Shown one piece after another: positions 1,268 through 55,629 of a stretch of DNA of 64,000 bases. Under the pieces are notes generated by a model that had not been told where the DNA came from, made no database searches, and saw only the letters and a list, made by a program, of their open reading frames with translations. This DNA is from Vicinamibacteraceae bacterium (GTDB lineage: Bacteria > Planctomycetota > Phycisphaerae > Phycisphaerales > UBA5793), in the NCBI GenBank assembly GCA_011525805.1, contig WYBR01000003.1, positions 1 to 64,000 of the forward strand, read 5' to 3'. Numbering within the stretch: position 1 is the stretch's first letter; every line of letters begins with the position of its first letter. The translations under genes were made by a program, and so were the position numbers.

Positions 1268-2203
1268 ATGCAGACGATGCAGTGCATGGAGGTGTGGGGC
1301 GGCAACGGGCTGGTGGACAGCGGCGTTTCCATGGCCGGCCTCGACGCCTGGGTCTTCAGTCGGCCCTACGGCTACAGCGAGACGGGTGGCGACGTCCACT
1401 ACGTCTCCTCCTGCGCCACGGGGCGCATCACCCGCCTGCTCGTGGCCGATGTGAGCGGGCACGGGGCCGAGGTGGCGGATGTCGCGGCGAATCTGCGCCG
1501 CCTCATGCGCCGCTTCATCAACTACATCGATCAGAACGCCTTCGTGCGCGAGATGAACGGTCAGTTCAGCGCCCTGTCGCAATCCGGGCGCTTCGCCACG
1601 GCGCTGGTGACGACGTTTTTCGCGCCGACGAACGAGGTGTCGGTGTGCAACGCCGGCCATCCGCCGCCGCTGCACTACAGCGCGAAGAAGCGGACATGGT
1701 CGGTGCTGGAATCCACTTCACGCCAGTCCGCCGGCGGCGCCAACATTCCGCTGGGAATCGCCGACCTCGGCGACTACGAGCAGTTCGGCGTGCGCCTGGG
1801 CATCGGCGACCTCGTGCTGTGCTACACCGACTCGCTCATCGAGTCGCGCGGCGCCGACGGCGCCCTGCTCGGCGTGAATGGTCTGCTCGAAGCCGCGCGC
1901 CGTGTCGAAGCGTCGAACCCCACGGAGTTCGTCCACGCGCTGCTTGATGCCGTCGCGAAGTTACACGAGGGCAACCTCGATGGCGACGACGTGACGGTCC
2001 TGCTCTTCCGCCCCAACGGCATGTCGCCGTGCGTGCCGATCCGCGACCGCCTCCTCGCGCCGCTTCGGATACTCAAGTCGCTGGCGAGATCGGCCCTGCG
2101 CGGCGGAGGGGACGGCGGATTCCCGGAGATCAGCATCGCCAACATCGGCGGCGCGCTCTTCACGCGACTCAACCGCCGCACGGGCCTCACGCGCGAGCCG
2201 TGA
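1268..2203 (+). CDS. PP2C/SpoIIE-type serine phosphatase
   Basis: A predicted metal-dependent serine/threonine phosphatase of the RsbU/SpoIIE class, about 311 residues. Metal-binding aspartates appear in order: SETGGDVHYV, LLVADVSGHG and, near the end, GDDVTVLLF. NAGHPPPL and LCYTDSLIE are also family hallmarks. These enzymes usually dephosphorylate anti-anti-sigma factors or other STAS-domain partners in stress signalling. No sensor domain or membrane segment is visible, so input must come from a partner protein. The reading frame is open upstream to 1148, but the ATG at 1268 follows a purine-rich stretch (GCGCGAGAGAG) and gives the usual catalytic-domain length. The partner protein is not in the window. 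Confidence 0.85.
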   Translation: MQTMQCMEVWGGNGLVDSGVSMAGLDAWVFSRPYGYSETGGDVHYVSSCATGRITRLLVADVSGHGAEVADVAANLRRLMRRFINYIDQNAFVREMNGQFSALSQSGRFATALVTTFFAPTNEVSVCNAGHPPPLHYSAKKRTWSVLESTSRQSAGGANIPLGIADLGDYEQFGVRLGIGDLVLCYTDSLIESRGADGALLGVNGLLEAARRVEASNPTEFVHALLDAVAKLHEGNLDGDDVTVLLFRPNGMSPCVPIRDRLLAPLRILKSLARSALRGGGDGGFPEISIANIGGALFTRLNRRTGLTREP

Positions 2204-17337: not shown

Positions 17338-17360
17338 GGGGCGAGGGATCGAGGCATTTG

Positions 17361-17397
17361 TTTAGCCGCGACCCGAAGGCTCTGCGCAGGGGAGCGC
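17361..17397. repeat. Dispersed repeat (TTAGCCGCGACCCG family)
   Basis: The sequence beginning TTTAGCCGCGACCCGAAGGC and continuing to GGGGAGCGCG recurs almost unchanged at about 45816-45851, in both cases near GGGATCGAGGCAT or GGCATCAAGGGATCGG motifs. It is imperfectly palindromic through CTCTGCGCAG. The gap 17338-17577 holds this repeat and the ribosome binding site of the next gene, and no other gene is seen. Confidence 0.75.
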
Positions 17398-17577
17398 GCC
17401 GACGCTGACCGTGCGTGCAATCACGCCCGCGCACCGAAAGCGGTTCGTCCTGTACGTCTTTGAGACATGTGAGCCGAATCGGATGGTTTTCTCTGGAAAG
17501 CGCCCGCGCGACGTGGTACGCTCTTTCGGGGTGCGCAATCGCGCGTCGGCGCCCGGCGGCGCCGGGAGGGAGCCAAC

Positions 17578-19167: not shown

Positions 19168-19356
19168 GCGACCGCGCTTTCAGCGGCGAGCGATCTACTC
19201 CCTCCCCCGGCATTGCGGGGGAGGGCTGGGGTGGGGGTGAATCGGCGACTTGTGAGGCGATTGCGATCGAAGACCTCGTGCCACGCCGCTGCCCCCACCC
19301 CTTCCCCTCCCCCGCAAAGCCGGGGGAGGGGCATGCACTCCGACGCTTCTTGAAAG
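19168..19356. repeat. Inverted pair of CCCTCCCCCGGC hairpin repeats
   Basis: The intergenic stretch 19093-19454 holds two inverted copies of a repeat. The left copy (core 19199-19239) contains CCTCCCCCGGCATTGCGGGG and then GGGTGGGGGT. The right copy (19291-19332) is its reverse complement with changes. Flanking sequence also pairs (GACCGCGCTTTCAGC against GAAAGCGCGATTACC). Each copy folds into its own hairpin. A related copy lies inside the cysteine desulfurase gene at 54911-54952. There is no gene in this stretch; the frame open across it is low complexity. Confidence 0.8.
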
Positions 19357-19454: not shown

Positions 19455-21473
19455 GTGACGACCATCGCTTCGCCAGGCCGTGCTGCTGTTCGCCCGGGTC
19501 GTGGTGCGCCCGATGCCGATGCGGACCCGCTCGTTGCAGCCGCGAGCGAGTCGCTGGACCGCGCGGTCGCCGCGCTGCTCTCGCTCCAGAAGCCCGACGG
19601 CCACTGGTGCGCGGAACTGCAAGGCGACTCCATTCTCAACAGCGAGTACACGCTGATGAAGTGGATCCTGCGCCAGGAGGATGATCCGCGCCTGCCGAAG
19701 ATTCTCGCGTATCTCCGCCGCCTGCAGCGCGAGGACGGCGCGTGGGGGCAGTTCCCCGGCAGCGGCGTGGACGTCAGCGCGACGGTCAAGGCGTATGTCT
19801 GTCTGCTGCTCGACGGCGATTCGCCCGAGGCGCTGCACATGCAGCGCGCCGCGGCCGCGATCCGCGCGCACGGCGGGGCCGAGGCGTGCAACAGTTTCAG
19901 CAACTTCTATCTCGCGGCTCTGGGGCTGATCGACTGGGATGCCGTGCCCGCGATCCCGCCGGAGATGATCTACCTGCCGCGCTGGTTCTACTTCCACCTC
20001 GACAAGGTTTCGGCGTGGACGCGGACGATGATCCTCCCGCTGGCGATCTGCACGGCCCTGCGGCCCGTGCGCGCATTGCCCGCGGGCATCAACATCGATC
20101 ATCTCTTCCTTGACGGGCGCTTCAAGCGCACGCTCTCGAAGAAGTTCGACGCGTTTCCATTCACGTGGAACAATCTCTTCCTCGCCGTCGATCGCGTCCT
20201 CAAGGTGATTCAGAAGGCCGACGCCTCGCCGCTGCGCCGCCGGGCGCTCAAGGCGGCTGAGCGGTGGATTCTCGACCGGGCGGACGCGAAGCACACCGAG
20301 GGCCTGGGCGCCATCTTCCCGCCGATGGTCTACCTCCAGGTCGCCTTCGATGCGCTGGGCTACGCGCGTTCGCACCCGGTGATGCGTCAAGCGGAGCGCA
20401 ACCTCGACGATTTCATCATCGAGGAGGAGGATCACATCCGCATTCAGCCCTGCTTTTCACCGGTGTGGGACACGGGAATCGCGCTCTATGCGCTCACCGA
20501 GAGCGGCAGGACGATCTCGAATTCGCCCGAAGTCGCGCGAGCCTGCGACTGGCTGCGCGGCAAAGAGAACCGCCTCGCCGGCGACTGGTCGCGCACGGTG
20601 GATGCACAGCCGGCGGGGTGGTACTTCGAGTATCGCAACGAGTGGTATCCGGATGTCGATGACACGGCGATGGTGGCGATGGCGCTGCACCGCGCCGGCG
20701 GCGAGGCGAACCGCGCGGCCGGCAAACGCGGCGTCAACTGGATCCTCGCCATGCTCAACGACGACGGCGGCTGGGCGGCCTTCGACAAGACGCGCGATCG
20801 CCCCATTCTCGAAAAAGTCCCCTTCGCCGACCACAACGCCATGCAGGACCCCTCGTGCCCCGACATCACCGGCCGCGTGCTCGAGTGCCTCGCGTGGCAC
20901 GGCCTGCGCGCGGATCATCACGCCGTGCAGCGAGCCGTGAAGTTCATCCGCTCGCGCCAGGAGCCGGAGGGCTGCTGGTTCGGCCGCTGGGGCGTGAACT
21001 ACATCTACGGCACGTGGCAGGCGGTCGGCGGTCTGCGCCACATCGGCGTTGACATGACGCAGCCGTGGATCCGCCGCGCCGGCGCCTGGCTCAAGAGCGT
21101 GCAGAACGCGAACGGCTCATTCGGCGAGTCCGCCAACTCCTACGAAGACCCGTCGCTCAAGGGCGTCGGTCCATCGACCGCGTCGCAGACGGCGTGGGCG
21201 GCGATGACGCTCCAGACCATCTTCGGGCCGGATGATCCCGATCTCGCGCGAGCCATTCAGTGGCTGTGCGAAACGCAACTCAGCGATGATGATGCGCCGA
21301 ATCGATCAGTCAACCCCGATGGCGATCCGCCGGGGTCGTGGGTGGAGACGGAGTTCACGGGCACCGGCTTCCCGCGCGTCTTCTATCTGCGCTACCACCT
21401 CTATCGCCTGTACTTTCCGCTCATGGCGCTCGCACGATTCGTGCGCGCACGCGCCGAAGCCCACGTTCAATGA
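19455..21473 (+). CDS. shc: Squalene-hopene cyclase
   Basis: Cyclises squalene to hopene/hopanol, the first committed step of hopanoid synthesis; a monotopic inner-membrane enzyme of 672 residues. The catalytic DxDD motif is present as YPDVDDTAMVAMALH at about residue 400. Several QW repeats are visible (QKPDGHW, QREDGAWGQFPG, NDDGGWAAF, QEPEGCWFGRWG, QNANGSFGES). The frame is open upstream through repeat sequence, but the GTG at 19455, six bases after AGGAG, gives a normal N-terminus. The last codons and the stop lie inside a REP palindrome (21450-21490). No other hopanoid genes adjoin. Confidence 0.95.
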   Translation: MTTIASPGRAAVRPGRGAPDADADPLVAAASESLDRAVAALLSLQKPDGHWCAELQGDSILNSEYTLMKWILRQEDDPRLPKILAYLRRLQREDGAWGQFPGSGVDVSATVKAYVCLLLDGDSPEALHMQRAAAAIRAHGGAEACNSFSNFYLAALGLIDWDAVPAIPPEMIYLPRWFYFHLDKVSAWTRTMILPLAICTALRPVRALPAGINIDHLFLDGRFKRTLSKKFDAFPFTWNNLFLAVDRVLKVIQKADASPLRRRALKAAERWILDRADAKHTEGLGAIFPPMVYLQVAFDALGYARSHPVMRQAERNLDDFIIEEEDHIRIQPCFSPVWDTGIALYALTESGRTISNSPEVARACDWLRGKENRLAGDWSRTVDAQPAGWYFEYRNEWYPDVDDTAMVAMALHRAGGEANRAAGKRGVNWILAMLNDDGGWAAFDKTRDRPILEKVPFADHNAMQDPSCPDITGRVLECLAWHGLRADHHAVQRAVKFIRSRQEPEGCWFGRWGVNYIYGTWQAVGGLRHIGVDMTQPWIRRAGAWLKSVQNANGSFGESANSYEDPSLKGVGPSTASQTAWAAMTLQTIFGPDDPDLARAIQWLCETQLSDDDAPNRSVNPDGDPPGSWVETEFTGTGFPRVFYLRYHLYRLYFPLMALARFVRARAEAHVQ

Positions 21474-21490
21474 ACGTGGGCTTCGGCGCG
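21450..21490 (+). repeat. REP palindrome, copy 1 (perfect)
   Basis: Perfect 20-bp arms (CGCGCCGAAGCCCACGTTCA and its complement) around a single A. The TGA stop of squalene-hopene cyclase is formed at its centre, so the arms encode the final residues of that protein. Related copies are at 33040-33066, 33297-33331 and 33703-33739, next to and inside the RAYT gene. Confidence 0.95.
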
Positions 21491-33016: not shown

Positions 33017-33039
33017 GGCGCAAGTGTAGTCGGACGCCC

Positions 33040-33066
33040 AAGCCCACGTTCATTGAACGTGGGCTT
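33040..33066 (-). repeat. REP palindrome, copy 2 (inverted)
   Basis: Thirteen-bp arms AAGCCCACGTTCA/TGAACGTGGGCTT around a central T. Because the centre is T rather than A, it is in the opposite orientation to the other three copies. It sits just past the 3' end of the RAYT gene (33070). Confidence 0.9.
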
Positions 33067-33069
33067 CGG

Positions 33070-33657
33070 TCACCGTGCTTCCGGGAACGACCATACCTCG
33101 GCGTACTCATTCGCGTGCTGCACGACGTAATTGCACACATTGATCTGATGCCGACGGTCCCGGATCGGGACGATCTTGCCGCGCTTTCCCCAGACCGGCC
33201 CCGAGGCCACGTGCCCTTCGCGCACAAGTCGCTTGGCGCTCCACTGTTTGGCGATCCCCATCAGGTGACGCACGGGGTCGTCAATCGCGGACGTGCGTCG
33301 AAGCCCACGTTCAATAAACGTGGGCTTCGACGGGCGCGCGGGGAGCTGCGCCAGGACGTGCAAGTGCGTCGCGGCCACCGCAATGGCGATGACCCGCACA
33401 TCATGTGCAACGAGAGTCTCTCGAAACTCCTCCAGCACGATTCGTCGCTGCAGAGCATTCAGCACCACGGCTGGGCGCTTCAACTTGCGATGCGCATCAG
33501 CATGACGCGTTTCAAATCGCCCCGGTGGAGGCGGCGATTTGTAATCACCTTGCACATGTTCACGATGCTTGCGGGTTCGGAAGCCGCGCGGGTCGCCGGG
33601 CAGCCAGGATCCGTAGGTCGACGTGATTGCGTGATACCAGTGGCGCCAGGCCGGCAT
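33070..33657 (-). CDS. REP-associated HUH transposase (RAYT/TnpA-REP)
   Basis: A 195-residue Y1 HUH nuclease of the IS200-like REP-associated type. It begins WYHAITSTYGSWLPGDPRGF, typical of this group. The HUH motif is ATHLHVLAQ (H98, H100). The likely catalytic tyrosine is in NVCNYVVQHANEYAEVW (Y177 candidate). Such proteins cut and rejoin at REP hairpins and spread them. REP copies lie at both ends (33040-33066 inverted, 33703-33739 direct) and a third lies inside the gene at 33297-33331, coding for SKPTFIERGLRR without breaking the frame. The ATG at 33657 has a GGAGG 8 bp upstream, which decides the start. Confidence 0.85.
   Translation of the reverse strand: MPAWRHWYHAITSTYGSWLPGDPRGFRTRKHREHVQGDYKSPPPPGRFETRHADAHRKLKRPAVVLNALQRRIVLEEFRETLVAHDVRVIAIAVAATHLHVLAQLPARPSKPTFIERGLRRTSAIDDPVRHLMGIAKQWSAKRLVREGHVASGPVWGKRGKIVPIRDRRHQINVCNYVVQHANEYAEVWSFPEAR
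33297..33331 (+). repeat. REP palindrome, copy 3 (inside RAYT gene)
   Basis: Seventeen-bp arms (GTCGAAGCCCACGTTCA against its near-complement, one mismatch) around a central A. It lies within the coding sequence of the RAYT, between the HUH motif and the C-terminal half, and encodes about 12 residues (about 110-121) in frame. The gene would otherwise be about 12 codons shorter. Confidence 0.9.
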
Positions 33658-33702: not shown

Positions 33703-33739
33703 CGCCGAAGCCCACGTTCAATGAACATGGGCTTCGGCG
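33703..33739 (+). repeat. REP palindrome, copy 4
   Basis: Eighteen-bp arms (CGCCGAAGCCCACGTTCA and complement, one mismatch) around a central A, in the same orientation as copies 1 and 3. It lies between the RAYT start (33657) and the hppA stop (33767), so the RAYT gene is bounded by an inverted pair of REPs. Confidence 0.9.
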
Positions 33740-33766
33740 CGTATTGCAGGTTGGAGGTGCGACGAC

Positions 33767-43652: not shown

Positions 43653-43801
43653 TTCACCACAGAGAGCACAGAGGGCACAGAAGAGAGGCATAAGTCATTT
43701 TTTGACAGCGGTTTGTGCCCGTTCCCACAGATCCGAATCGCTCCCTGACCTGATTCTTTCACCCTCCTGCCCCTCTGTGCCCTCTGTGCTTTCTGTGGTA
43801 A
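43653..43801. repeat. Inverted CACAGAG-type repeat element
   Basis: About 150 bp bounded by inverted arms. The left arm is TTCACCACAGAGAGCACAGA (43653-43672), continuing GGGCACAG. The right arm (43770-43801) is its near complement, with CTCTGTGCCCTCTGTGC. The interior is not repetitive. An element with the same arms lies in the cysteine desulfurase gene (54195-54370). It lies ahead of the repressor start (43825) and may carry or interrupt its promoter. Confidence 0.8.
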
Positions 43802-43824
43802 GGTCAATCGAGCAGAGCCTTGAG

Positions 43825-45780: not shown

Positions 45781-45851
45781 TGAGGCATCAAGGCATCAAG
45801 GGATCGGGCCTTTGGTTAGCCGCGACCCGGAGGCTCTGCGCAGAGGAGCGC
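45781..45851. repeat. Dispersed repeat with tandem GGCATCAA units
   Basis: TGAGGCATCAAGGCATCAAG followed by GGATCGGGCC leads into TTAGCCGCGACCCGGAGGCT, which recurs at 17361-17397. A shortened inverted piece (CTCGATGCCTTGATGCCT) lies near 13749-13769. The element fills the gap between mrpG and the NYN gene, and no gene is seen. Confidence 0.75.
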
Positions 45852-45871
45852 TCGGGCGCGGGCGCCTCGTC

Positions 45872-53797: not shown

Positions 53798-55240
53798 TCA
53801 CCCCACCGGCAGAACACGCTGCAGCCGCTGCACCACCGCCGCGATCACCTCCACCGCCGCGTCAACCTCCTCATCCGTCGTCTCCTCCGCGAGGCTGAAG
53901 CGGATCGAGCCGTGCGCGAGGCGCTCCTCAACGCCCATCGCCAGCAGGATGGGCGAAGGATCGAGCGAACCGCTGCTGCACGCCGCACCCGCCGAAGCGC
54001 ACACGCCGCGCTCGCTCAGCCCCATCAGGATCGCCTCCGCTTCGAGGCGGTCGAACGCGATGTTGGTCGTGTTCCACATCCGCCGACTCGGATCGGTCGC
54101 GCCATTCACGACGCTGCCGGGCACGCGCTCGAGGATGAGCCGCTCGAGCCGGTCCCGCCGCGCCGCCGTCGCCCGCGCGGCCGGATGCAGTGAACTCACC
54201 ACACAGGGCACAGAGAGATTCTCTGATTTGGATTGATCCGCCTCCTCCCCCGCTTCTCTCGGCGCTCTCTGCGATGAAGACTCCTCACTCTCTCCCTGCC
54301 CTCCCCGTGCTCTTCCCTCGACCCTGAGCGGCTCGGGACCGAAGGGCTGTGCCCTCTGTGGTGAAGTTGGATTCGAGAATCTCGACAGAGCCAACTCCGC
54401 CGCGACGCCCAGGCCGATGATGCCGGGCACATCTTCCGTCCCCCCACGGCGCTCGCGCTCGTGCGGCCCGCCGACGATCTGCGATTGCAGCCGCACGCCG
54501 CGGCGCACAAACAGCCCGCCGATCCCCTTTGGCCCGTGGAATTTGTGCCCCGCGAAACTCAGCAGATCCACGCCCAGCGCCCGCGCATCCGTGGGCAACT
54601 TGCCCACCCACTGCACCGCATCGGTGTGGAAGAGCGCTTTGCGGTCGATCGCCTTCGCCGCCGCAACCAGGTCCGCGAGCGGCTGGATCACGCCCGTCTC
54701 GTTGTTCGCCCAGATGATCGAGATGAGCGCGACGCGGCCGTCGTGCGACCGCATCGCCGATGCAAGATCATCCGGCGTCACCAGCCCCGCGCGCGACACG
54801 GGCAGGCGCACAATGGTGAAGCCCTCTTTCTCCAGTCGCTCCATCGCCTCGCGCACCGCCGAGTGCTCGACCGGTGTGGTGATGATGACATCACGAGCAA
54901 GGTGGATTCCACCCCCTCCCCCGGCTCTGCGGGAAAGGGCCGGGTTGGGGGTCCTCTCCTGCTCTCCTGCTCTCCTGCTCAACTCTCTGTGAGCCACTCC
55001 AAAGATCGCCAGGTTGCACGACTCCGTCCCGCTGGAGGTGAAGACAATCTCCGCCGGCTGCGCGATCAAGAGCCGCGCCACGGTTTCGCGCGCCAGTTCC
55101 ACCTTCGCCCGCACCTGCTGGCCGAAGCGATGCACGCTCGACGGGTTGCCCCAGTCGGCGCGCATCGCCTCCGCGACGGCTTCGACAACCTCCGCCGCCG
55201 GCCGCGTCGTCGCGTTGTGATCGAGATAGATCGCCCGCAT
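53798..55240 (-). CDS. Cysteine desulfurase (IscS/NifS type) with two repeat-derived insertions
   Basis: A class-V PLP enzyme that takes sulfur from cysteine for Fe-S clusters and tRNA thiolation; 480 residues, about 80 more than usual. The family core is intact: YLDHNATTRPAAEVV, TSSGTESCNLAIFG, the PLP-Lys in SFAGHKFHGPKG (K233) and the active Cys in SAGAACSSGS (C421). Two stretches lie outside the family: about residues 86-115 (Arg/Gly-rich) and about 287-351 (Glu/Ser-rich). They match sequences of dispersed repeats (54898-54990 and 54195-54370), inserted in frame. Whether the enzyme is active is not proven. The gene ends near the ATPase gene. Confidence 0.9.
   Translation of the reverse strand: MRAIYLDHNATTRPAAEVVEAVAEAMRADWGNPSSVHRFGQQVRAKVELARETVARLLIAQPAEIVFTSSGTESCNLAIFGVAHRELSRRAGEQERTPNPALSRRAGGGGGIHLARDVIITTPVEHSAVREAMERLEKEGFTIVRLPVSRAGLVTPDDLASAMRSHDGRVALISIIWANNETGVIQPLADLVAAAKAIDRKALFHTDAVQWVGKLPTDARALGVDLLSFAGHKFHGPKGIGGLFVRRGVRLQSQIVGGPHERERRGGTEDVPGIIGLGVAAELALSRFSNPTSPQRAQPFGPEPLRVEGRARGGQGESEESSSQRAPREAGEEADQSKSENLSVPCVVSSLHPAARATAARRDRLERLILERVPGSVVNGATDPSRRMWNTTNIAFDRLEAEAILMGLSERGVCASAGAACSSGSLDPSPILLAMGVEERLAHGSIRFSLAEETTDEEVDAAVEVIAAVVQRLQRVLPVG
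54195..54370. repeat. CACAGAG-type inverted repeat element inside the desulfurase gene
   Basis: The left arm is CACCACACAGGGCACAGAGA (54197-54216) and the right arm is CTGTGCCCTCTGTGGTGAAG (54349-54368). The interior is about 130 bp. The same arm family bounds the 43653-43801 element upstream of the repressor. It encodes about 65 extra residues in frame. Confidence 0.8.
54898..54990. repeat. CCCTCCCCCGGC-type repeat inside the desulfurase gene
   Basis: The core, 54911-54952, begins ACCCCCTCCCCCGGCTCTGC and continues to GGGTTGGGGGT. It is a diverged copy of the element at 19199-19239. It adds about 25-30 residues to the enzyme at residues 86-115, without a frame break. Confidence 0.75.
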
Positions 55241-55344: not shown

Positions 55345-55629
55345 GCCCCGGAGGGGCGCCAGTGTGTAGCCACGGGTGGAGCGAGCCGAGGCGCAACCCG
55401 GCGAGTGGAACCCGTGGGCGGCGGCGCGCAAAGATTCCACCGCCCCGGAGGGGCGGAAGAGGTGTGCGCATCGCTGCACGCACAGGACGGACGAAAGCGC
55501 GCGCCTGGACTTCGACCCTCTCCATCGCCCCATCCGGGGCGAATCGAATCGAAGAGCGCCCGCATCCACGGGTTCCGCGATGCGAAGCATCGCTCCACCC
55601 GTGGCTACACTCCCGAACCCCTCCGGGGT
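55345..55629. repeat. Inverted pair of GTGTAGCCACGGGTGG repeats
   Basis: The left copy (55345-55421) contains CGCCCCGGAGGGGCG, then GTGTAGCCACGGGTGGAGCG and an end ...GGAACCCGTGG. The right copy (55566-55629) is its reverse complement: CCACGGGTTCCGCGATGCGA, then GCTCCACCCGTGGCTACAC and CCCCTCCGGGGT. The 452-bp gap 55241-55692 is mainly this. Frames across it are Arg/Pro-rich, and no gene is supported. Confidence 0.85.

Follow-up and report, generated by a model that had tools for sequence, protein, structure and literature searches.

In-frame loop insertions of a planctomycete cysteine desulfurase as probable relics of palindromic repeat elements

The window analysed here is a stretch of 64,000 nucleotides (nt) of planctomycete DNA (contig WYBR01000003.1), and our subject is a cysteine desulfurase gene (nifS) within it whose protein carries two insertions. 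The window's own genome (G000) was compared with four congeners, G001 (UBA5793, a Phycisphaerales metagenome-assembled genome, MAG), G002 (PLA5), G003 and G004 (KLAP200), with G005 as the root of the tree. The core tree was ((G000,G002),(G001,(G003,G004))). Repeats were counted by pattern searches and in fetched genome stretches, with the reversed pattern as control. The gene and the parts of its insertions are as follows.

53798-55240, minus strand: NifS/IscS-type cysteine desulfurase gene, 480 amino acids, with two loop insertions (open reading frame, ORF; hidden Markov model, HMM; fold search)
54896-54985, minus strand: insertion 1, residues 86-115 (alignment with the empty G001 orthologue; predicted local distance difference test, pLDDT, below 50 at residues 97-111)
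54954-54979, minus strand: local 9-nt tandem repeat within insertion 1, AGCAGGAGA three times, read as SRRAGE.. (pattern search)
54906-54951, minus strand: element A, a palindrome of ~40 nt with its core at 54914-54939, read as PNPALSRRAGGGG (window matches, census, fold)
54188-54382, minus strand: insertion 2, residues 287-351, between two helices (congener alignment; pLDDT below 50 at residues 293-349)
54349-54365, minus strand: 5' arm of element B in insertion 2, TTCACCACAGAGGGCAC (arm search)
54322-54346, minus strand: nested low-copy palindrome E in insertion 2, CCCTTCGGTCCCGAGCCGCTCAGGG (pattern search)
54195-54213, plus strand: inverted 3' arm of element B in insertion 2, CTCACCACACAGGGCACAG (window match, arm comparison)

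The closest folds of the predicted protein were IscS/NFS1 structures (Foldseek, E about 1e-38), and profile HMM matches to desulfurase were interrupted at both insertions. The pyridoxal phosphate lysine (K233 within GHKFHGPKG) and the active cysteine (C421 within SAGAACSSG) were both retained, and together with the fold they identify the product as a NifS/IscS cysteine desulfurase. In an AlphaFold2 model built from 18 sequences, pLDDT exceeded 85 across most of the core, and the two insertion segments were the long stretches below 50, besides residues 1-8 and 260-267. Insertion 1 follows a helix that ends near residue 85 and precedes the strand that runs into the conserved TPVEH. Between G000 and G002, omega (the nonsynonymous to synonymous ratio) was 0.098 for the core with insertions excluded (bootstrap 0.06-0.15), 0.61 for both insertions pooled (bootstrap 0.32-1.22) and 0.93 for insertion 2 taken alone. 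The enzyme core is strongly constrained; the insertions vary almost freely, provided that frame is kept. A preliminary description of the window had proposed a cysteine desulfurase at exactly these coordinates, with an intact core and two in-frame insertions at residues 86-115 and 287-351 in surface loops. Each of these points was borne out: both segments were extra in the alignment with congeners, and the model places them in long low-confidence loops, predicted to be disordered. Just upstream of the nifS start codon lies an inverted repeat with 39-nt arms that are 87% complementary (55346-55384 and 55590-55628).

The two insertions are composite. Insertion 1 matched the window at 19194-19238 (82%, E 7.5e-8 within the window) and at 19292-19331 through its palindrome, element A, and its first part (residues 86-97) is the 9-nt tandem repeat, which was found only in nifS, of G000 and G003. 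Insertion 1 as a dispersed repeat throughout was ruled out, since residues 86-97 are a local repeat confined to this gene. Insertion 2 resembled the intergenic sequence at 43653-43673 at its ends only (E 0.01-0.04 within the window). Its middle is not element B; it holds palindrome E (2 copies in G000 and 2 in G004) and otherwise unique sequence, and palindrome E lies in a 33-nt in-frame block of G000 that is missing from G002. The earlier claim that the insertions coincide with intergenic repeats therefore stands for the palindrome of insertion 1 and the ends of insertion 2, and falls for residues 86-97 and the middle of insertion 2.

The nifS loops differed among the five congeners. Loop 1 was empty in G001, where it reads FGVVRRHPHRTTVITTP, and carried the tandem repeat and one copy of element A in G000, two A copies in different frames in G002, an A-C-A block in G003 (the middle element, C, being read as DSRLRGND), and three A copies followed by C and A in G004, where growth was partly by tandem duplication of 48-nt units. 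Loop 2 was occupied in two of the five genomes, G000 and G002, and the block that sets these two apart is again a multiple of three. The A-C-A block common to G003 and G004 showed few synonymous changes (synonymous difference, pS, 0.07 vs 0.245 in the core of the same pair). An unrelated inverted palindrome pair was seen in frame in nifS loop 1 of a Gemmata sp. MAG from another part of the phylum (L186, 1740-1870).

Element A has the consensus CCCCCACCCCGGCCCTCCCCCGCAGAGCCGGGGGAGGGAG and a stem of about -24 kcal/mol by itself. With up to 3 mismatches allowed, 23, 6, 13, 12 and 31 copies were found in G000 to G004, respectively, and 2 in G005, while the reversed control gave 0. Six intergenic inverted pairs had spacings of 104-108 nt, a fixed short distance of the kind that defines REPINs, among them the following.

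19200-19330, no strand assigned: intergenic inverted pair of A, starts 105 nt apart, forming one long REPIN-like hairpin (census, fold)

Neighbouring copies lay in direct orientation in 7 of 8 cases inside genes and 1 of 7 outside (Fisher p 0.01). Repetitive extragenic palindromes (REPs) of the tagged kinds carry GTAG or CGTC; only 2 of 85 A copies had the first tag and 5 of 85 the second, which rules out A as a GTAG- or CGTC-tagged REP.

The same palindrome is read in frame in many genes of the genus. Each of the 87 A copies was placed, and codon usage in its flanks was scored frame by frame; the copies collapsed to 72 loci, 23 of which had A in frame inside a gene; all in-gene A loci read were in frame and stop-free across the element and its near flanks. 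Identified bearers were pyrG, uvrA, murD, mfd and a 1-acylglycerol-3-phosphate acyltransferase-like protein. Others, which we take from the look of their sequences to be UDP-sugar pyrophosphorylase-like, isocitrate/isopropylmalate dehydrogenase-like and squalene-hopene-cyclase-like proteins, also contained A. Genes used three forward frames (PTPALPRRAGGG, PPPRPSPAEPGEG and PHPDPPPQSRGRE) and mainly one reverse frame (PSPGSAGEGRGGG), that is, at least four of six; none of the placed copies showed the reverse frame PPALRGRAGVG inside a gene. Element C or a further element, D, was also present at 9 of the 23 in-gene loci, compared to 5 of the 49 others (Fisher p 0.008, although loci shared by descent are not independent). 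The murD loop held A, C and D in G000, D alone in G002 and an A remnant in G001, and was short in G003 and G004. The gene trpE carried element B, and in G004 a copy sharing its interior stood between genes, just downstream of trpE. Among the five genomes, only the two with the most A copies, G000 and G004, had occupied loops in pyrG, uvrA and trpE; in their sisters G002 and G003 and in G001 these loops were empty.

The companion families were of several kinds. Element B consists of inverted TTCACCACAGAGNNCAC arms, built from short CACAGAG units, and spans ~150-170 nt overall, with 17 arm matches in G000 (control 0). Its intergenic copy in the window has the terminal inverted repeats of a miniature inverted-repeat transposable element (MITE).

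43653-43802, no strand assigned: intergenic element B, 26-nt inverted arms 96% complementary, ~150 nt (inverted repeat and arm searches)

Element C reads CGTC-ATTCCCGC-GCAG-GCGGGAAT-CCA, and 5, 11, 6, 19 and 19 copies were found in G000 to G004. A CGTC tag stood unpaired at one end of 23 of the 31 listed copies (most of the remainder had TGTC or CCTC), followed by an 8-bp stem starting with AT, a 4-nt loop and, in all 31, a CCA tail; inverted dimers 52-99 nt apart occurred in G000, G001, G002, G003 and G005. Judged on this structure, C can be classed as a CGTC-1 REP by every structural point of the published definition (PMC3733652). Genes for Y1 transposases, identified by a search with PF01797 and by reading the ORFs, were present in all six genomes, and C lay within ~0.8 kb of such genes in G003 and G004. 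At one locus (L080, G005:C2) a Y1 transposase ORF (1405-2058, minus strand) was flanked by 300-nt direct repeats (1098-1395 and 2096-2398) that are 96% identical, each holding an inverted pair of CGTC-1 REPs. No A copy adjoined a Y1 gene across the ten Y1 loci read. Element D (GCGCAGAGCCTCCGCGTCGCGGCTAA; window copies at 17353-17405 and 45807-45859) stood in frame beside A in the loops of murD and mfd in G000 and of the hopene-cyclase-like gene in G004.

Taken together, the two insertions are very probably the remains of non-autonomous repeat elements that entered surface loops where a functioning desulfurase could tolerate them. Palindromes would land widely and persist in genes only where frame, freedom from stops and a flexible loop permit; these insertions would have survived because frame was kept, no stop was introduced and the encoded peptide was flexible and rich in Pro, Gly, Ser and Arg. 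The palindromes would most likely be mobilised by a Y1-type transposase: C, a CGTC-1 REP, occurs next to Y1 genes, and A is often its immediate neighbour at a fixed spacing (29-32 nt between starts, ten loci), so the pair A-C may be mobile as one unit. After the first landing, loops would grow by further copies and partly by tandem duplication. The loops would be chosen by selection and not by the element, as a loop that tolerates one insertion may tolerate more, and so several families may accumulate and the same loops be refilled in different species. The outcome would be neutral ballast. The preliminary description had likewise held that repeats entered the loops and persisted in frame, and the empty orthologues agree with this; the finding that might have overturned it, insertions conserved among relatives and unlike intergenic repeats, did not occur. 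Its further suggestion that the palindromes act as protein-coding spacers did not hold up: the insertions evolve freely, several frames of A are used, and copy number and make-up vary between sister species. A spacer function is therefore not supported.

Two species that are not sisters share filled loops in pyrG, uvrA and trpE, so insertion probably reached these loops on more than one occasion; judged by which sites are filled and which empty, two gains per gene would be the simpler history, against a single gain followed by three exact losses. Several points weigh against the overall account. Parallel gain is unproved, and an ancestral gain followed by several exact losses, or interspecies recombination, may instead have produced the pattern. 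No A copy lay beside a Y1 gene at the examined loci, so that the Y1 transposase is a putative mobiliser of A. No target-site duplication was defined. The low pS of the G003/G004 block relative to the core is unexpected under plain neutrality; recent homogenisation or hairpin constraint could be its cause.

We consider it unlikely that certain enzyme loops of this genus are true insertion targets, to whose codons the machinery would return across species, such that the mosaics would be site-directed rather than the work of selection alone. It is improbable that selection acts on the nucleic acid, keeping a hairpin in the gene or messenger RNA (for pausing, stability or supercoiling) with the peptide as a by-product: the strong stems, that of A by itself included, and the few synonymous changes in the A-C-A block would fit such selection, but orthologues do without the hairpin (nifS of G001; pyrG of G001-G003), and recent homogenisation or insertion gives equally low divergence. 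Distinctly improbable, too, is recruitment of the insertion peptides for a task in the enzyme, as a linker, a docking site or a regulator. The insertions remain in frame across species-level divergence, insertion 2 is common to G000 and G002, and the pooled omega lies below 1 at the lower end of its bootstrap interval; against this, peptide, length and family vary between sister species, G001 lives without insertions, different genes use different frames of the same element, and insertion 2 alone gives an omega close to 1. Skipping has been described at stable hairpins within conserved genes in other systems, a general precedent that draws on nothing from this genome. That the insertions are skipped here, through RNA splicing or ribosome bypassing, and are thus missing from the protein is very unlikely because the in-gene copies keep frame and are free of stops, a constraint that skipping would make needless. 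Finally, an assembly artefact or ordinary slippage of low-complexity DNA, which the 9-nt tandem repeat in the first 12 residues of insertion 1 and the metagenomic origin of the assemblies might suggest, is rejected as hardly credible, since independently assembled PLA5 and KLAP200 have related in-frame insertions at the same sites, many loci agree in several genomes, and the palindromes are dispersed with zero control matches.

In-frame palindromic elements in bacterial genes are already known. Rickettsia palindromic elements (RPEs; Ogata et al. 2000, 2002, cited after PMC10969869) occur in frame in unrelated housekeeping genes and also between genes, and their insertions are judged there to be compatible with protein structure. 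The present elements resemble RPEs in lying in frame in conserved genes and being missing from some orthologues (nifS, pyrG, uvrA, murD, mfd and trpE), but they lack a conserved element-encoded peptide, A being read in at least four frames. They differ also in the ~40-nt length of the main element, in the several families per loop and in the host, a GC-rich planctomycete rather than an intracellular alphaproteobacterium. Intragenic GTAG and CGTC REPs (Di Nocera et al. 2013, PMC3733652), many of them in DNA repair genes including uvrA, have been proposed for flexible linkers or loops. That study equated the CGTC-1 family with Neisseria dRS3 and Rickettsia RPE-6, and the likeness of element C to RPE-6 is one of CGTC-1 structure only, according to this assignment. 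It described a single instance, in recB, of two related Xanthomonas species sharing roughly the same site, and it identified no dedicated transposase for the CGTC REPs. In the present genomes, in contrast, A carries neither tag, the same site is filled in at least two species in several genes, with states seen in five congeners, and CGTC-1 copies flank Y1 transposase genes. The intergenic inverted pairs of A and the Y1 genes in six genomes recall the REPIN/RAYT system (PMC3116915), whereas in-gene copies are single or in direct tandem, rarely inverted pairs, and no A copy was found beside a Y1 gene at the loci read. Element B is MITE-like in its 17-26-nt inverted arms and its ~150-nt intergenic copies, although no related autonomous element was identified for it, nor, for lack of a nearly identical empty site, a target duplication.

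The untagged family A, the mosaics of several families and the CGTC-1 REPs beside a transposase gene are new, and so is the series of empty and filled loops within one genus, where the same loops were probably filled repeatedly. Evidence that mobile DNA supplies segments of bacterial proteins has so far come largely from Rickettsia and scattered single cases; since five related species show the same loops empty, filled and refilled, it becomes possible to trace and test how repeat-derived peptides arise, spread and decay. Annotators who meet a peptide such as PTPALPRRAGGG or DSRLRGND recurring in conserved proteins should read it as a relic of a DNA repeat and not as a domain.

Two further repeats were seen in the window. 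Another near-perfect palindrome, CGCCGAAGCCCACGTTCAATGAACGTGGGCTTCGGCGCG, occurs in four copies at 21452-21490, 33035-33073, 33296-33334 and 33703-33741, and positions 5-397 hold repeats of 38-127 nt at a spacing of ~180 nt, ACCCGTGCTTACGCGTGGGGCTCGGTTC. The peptide TRAYAWGSV, which the latter repeat DNA can encode, also precedes the A copy at G000:C115:4444.
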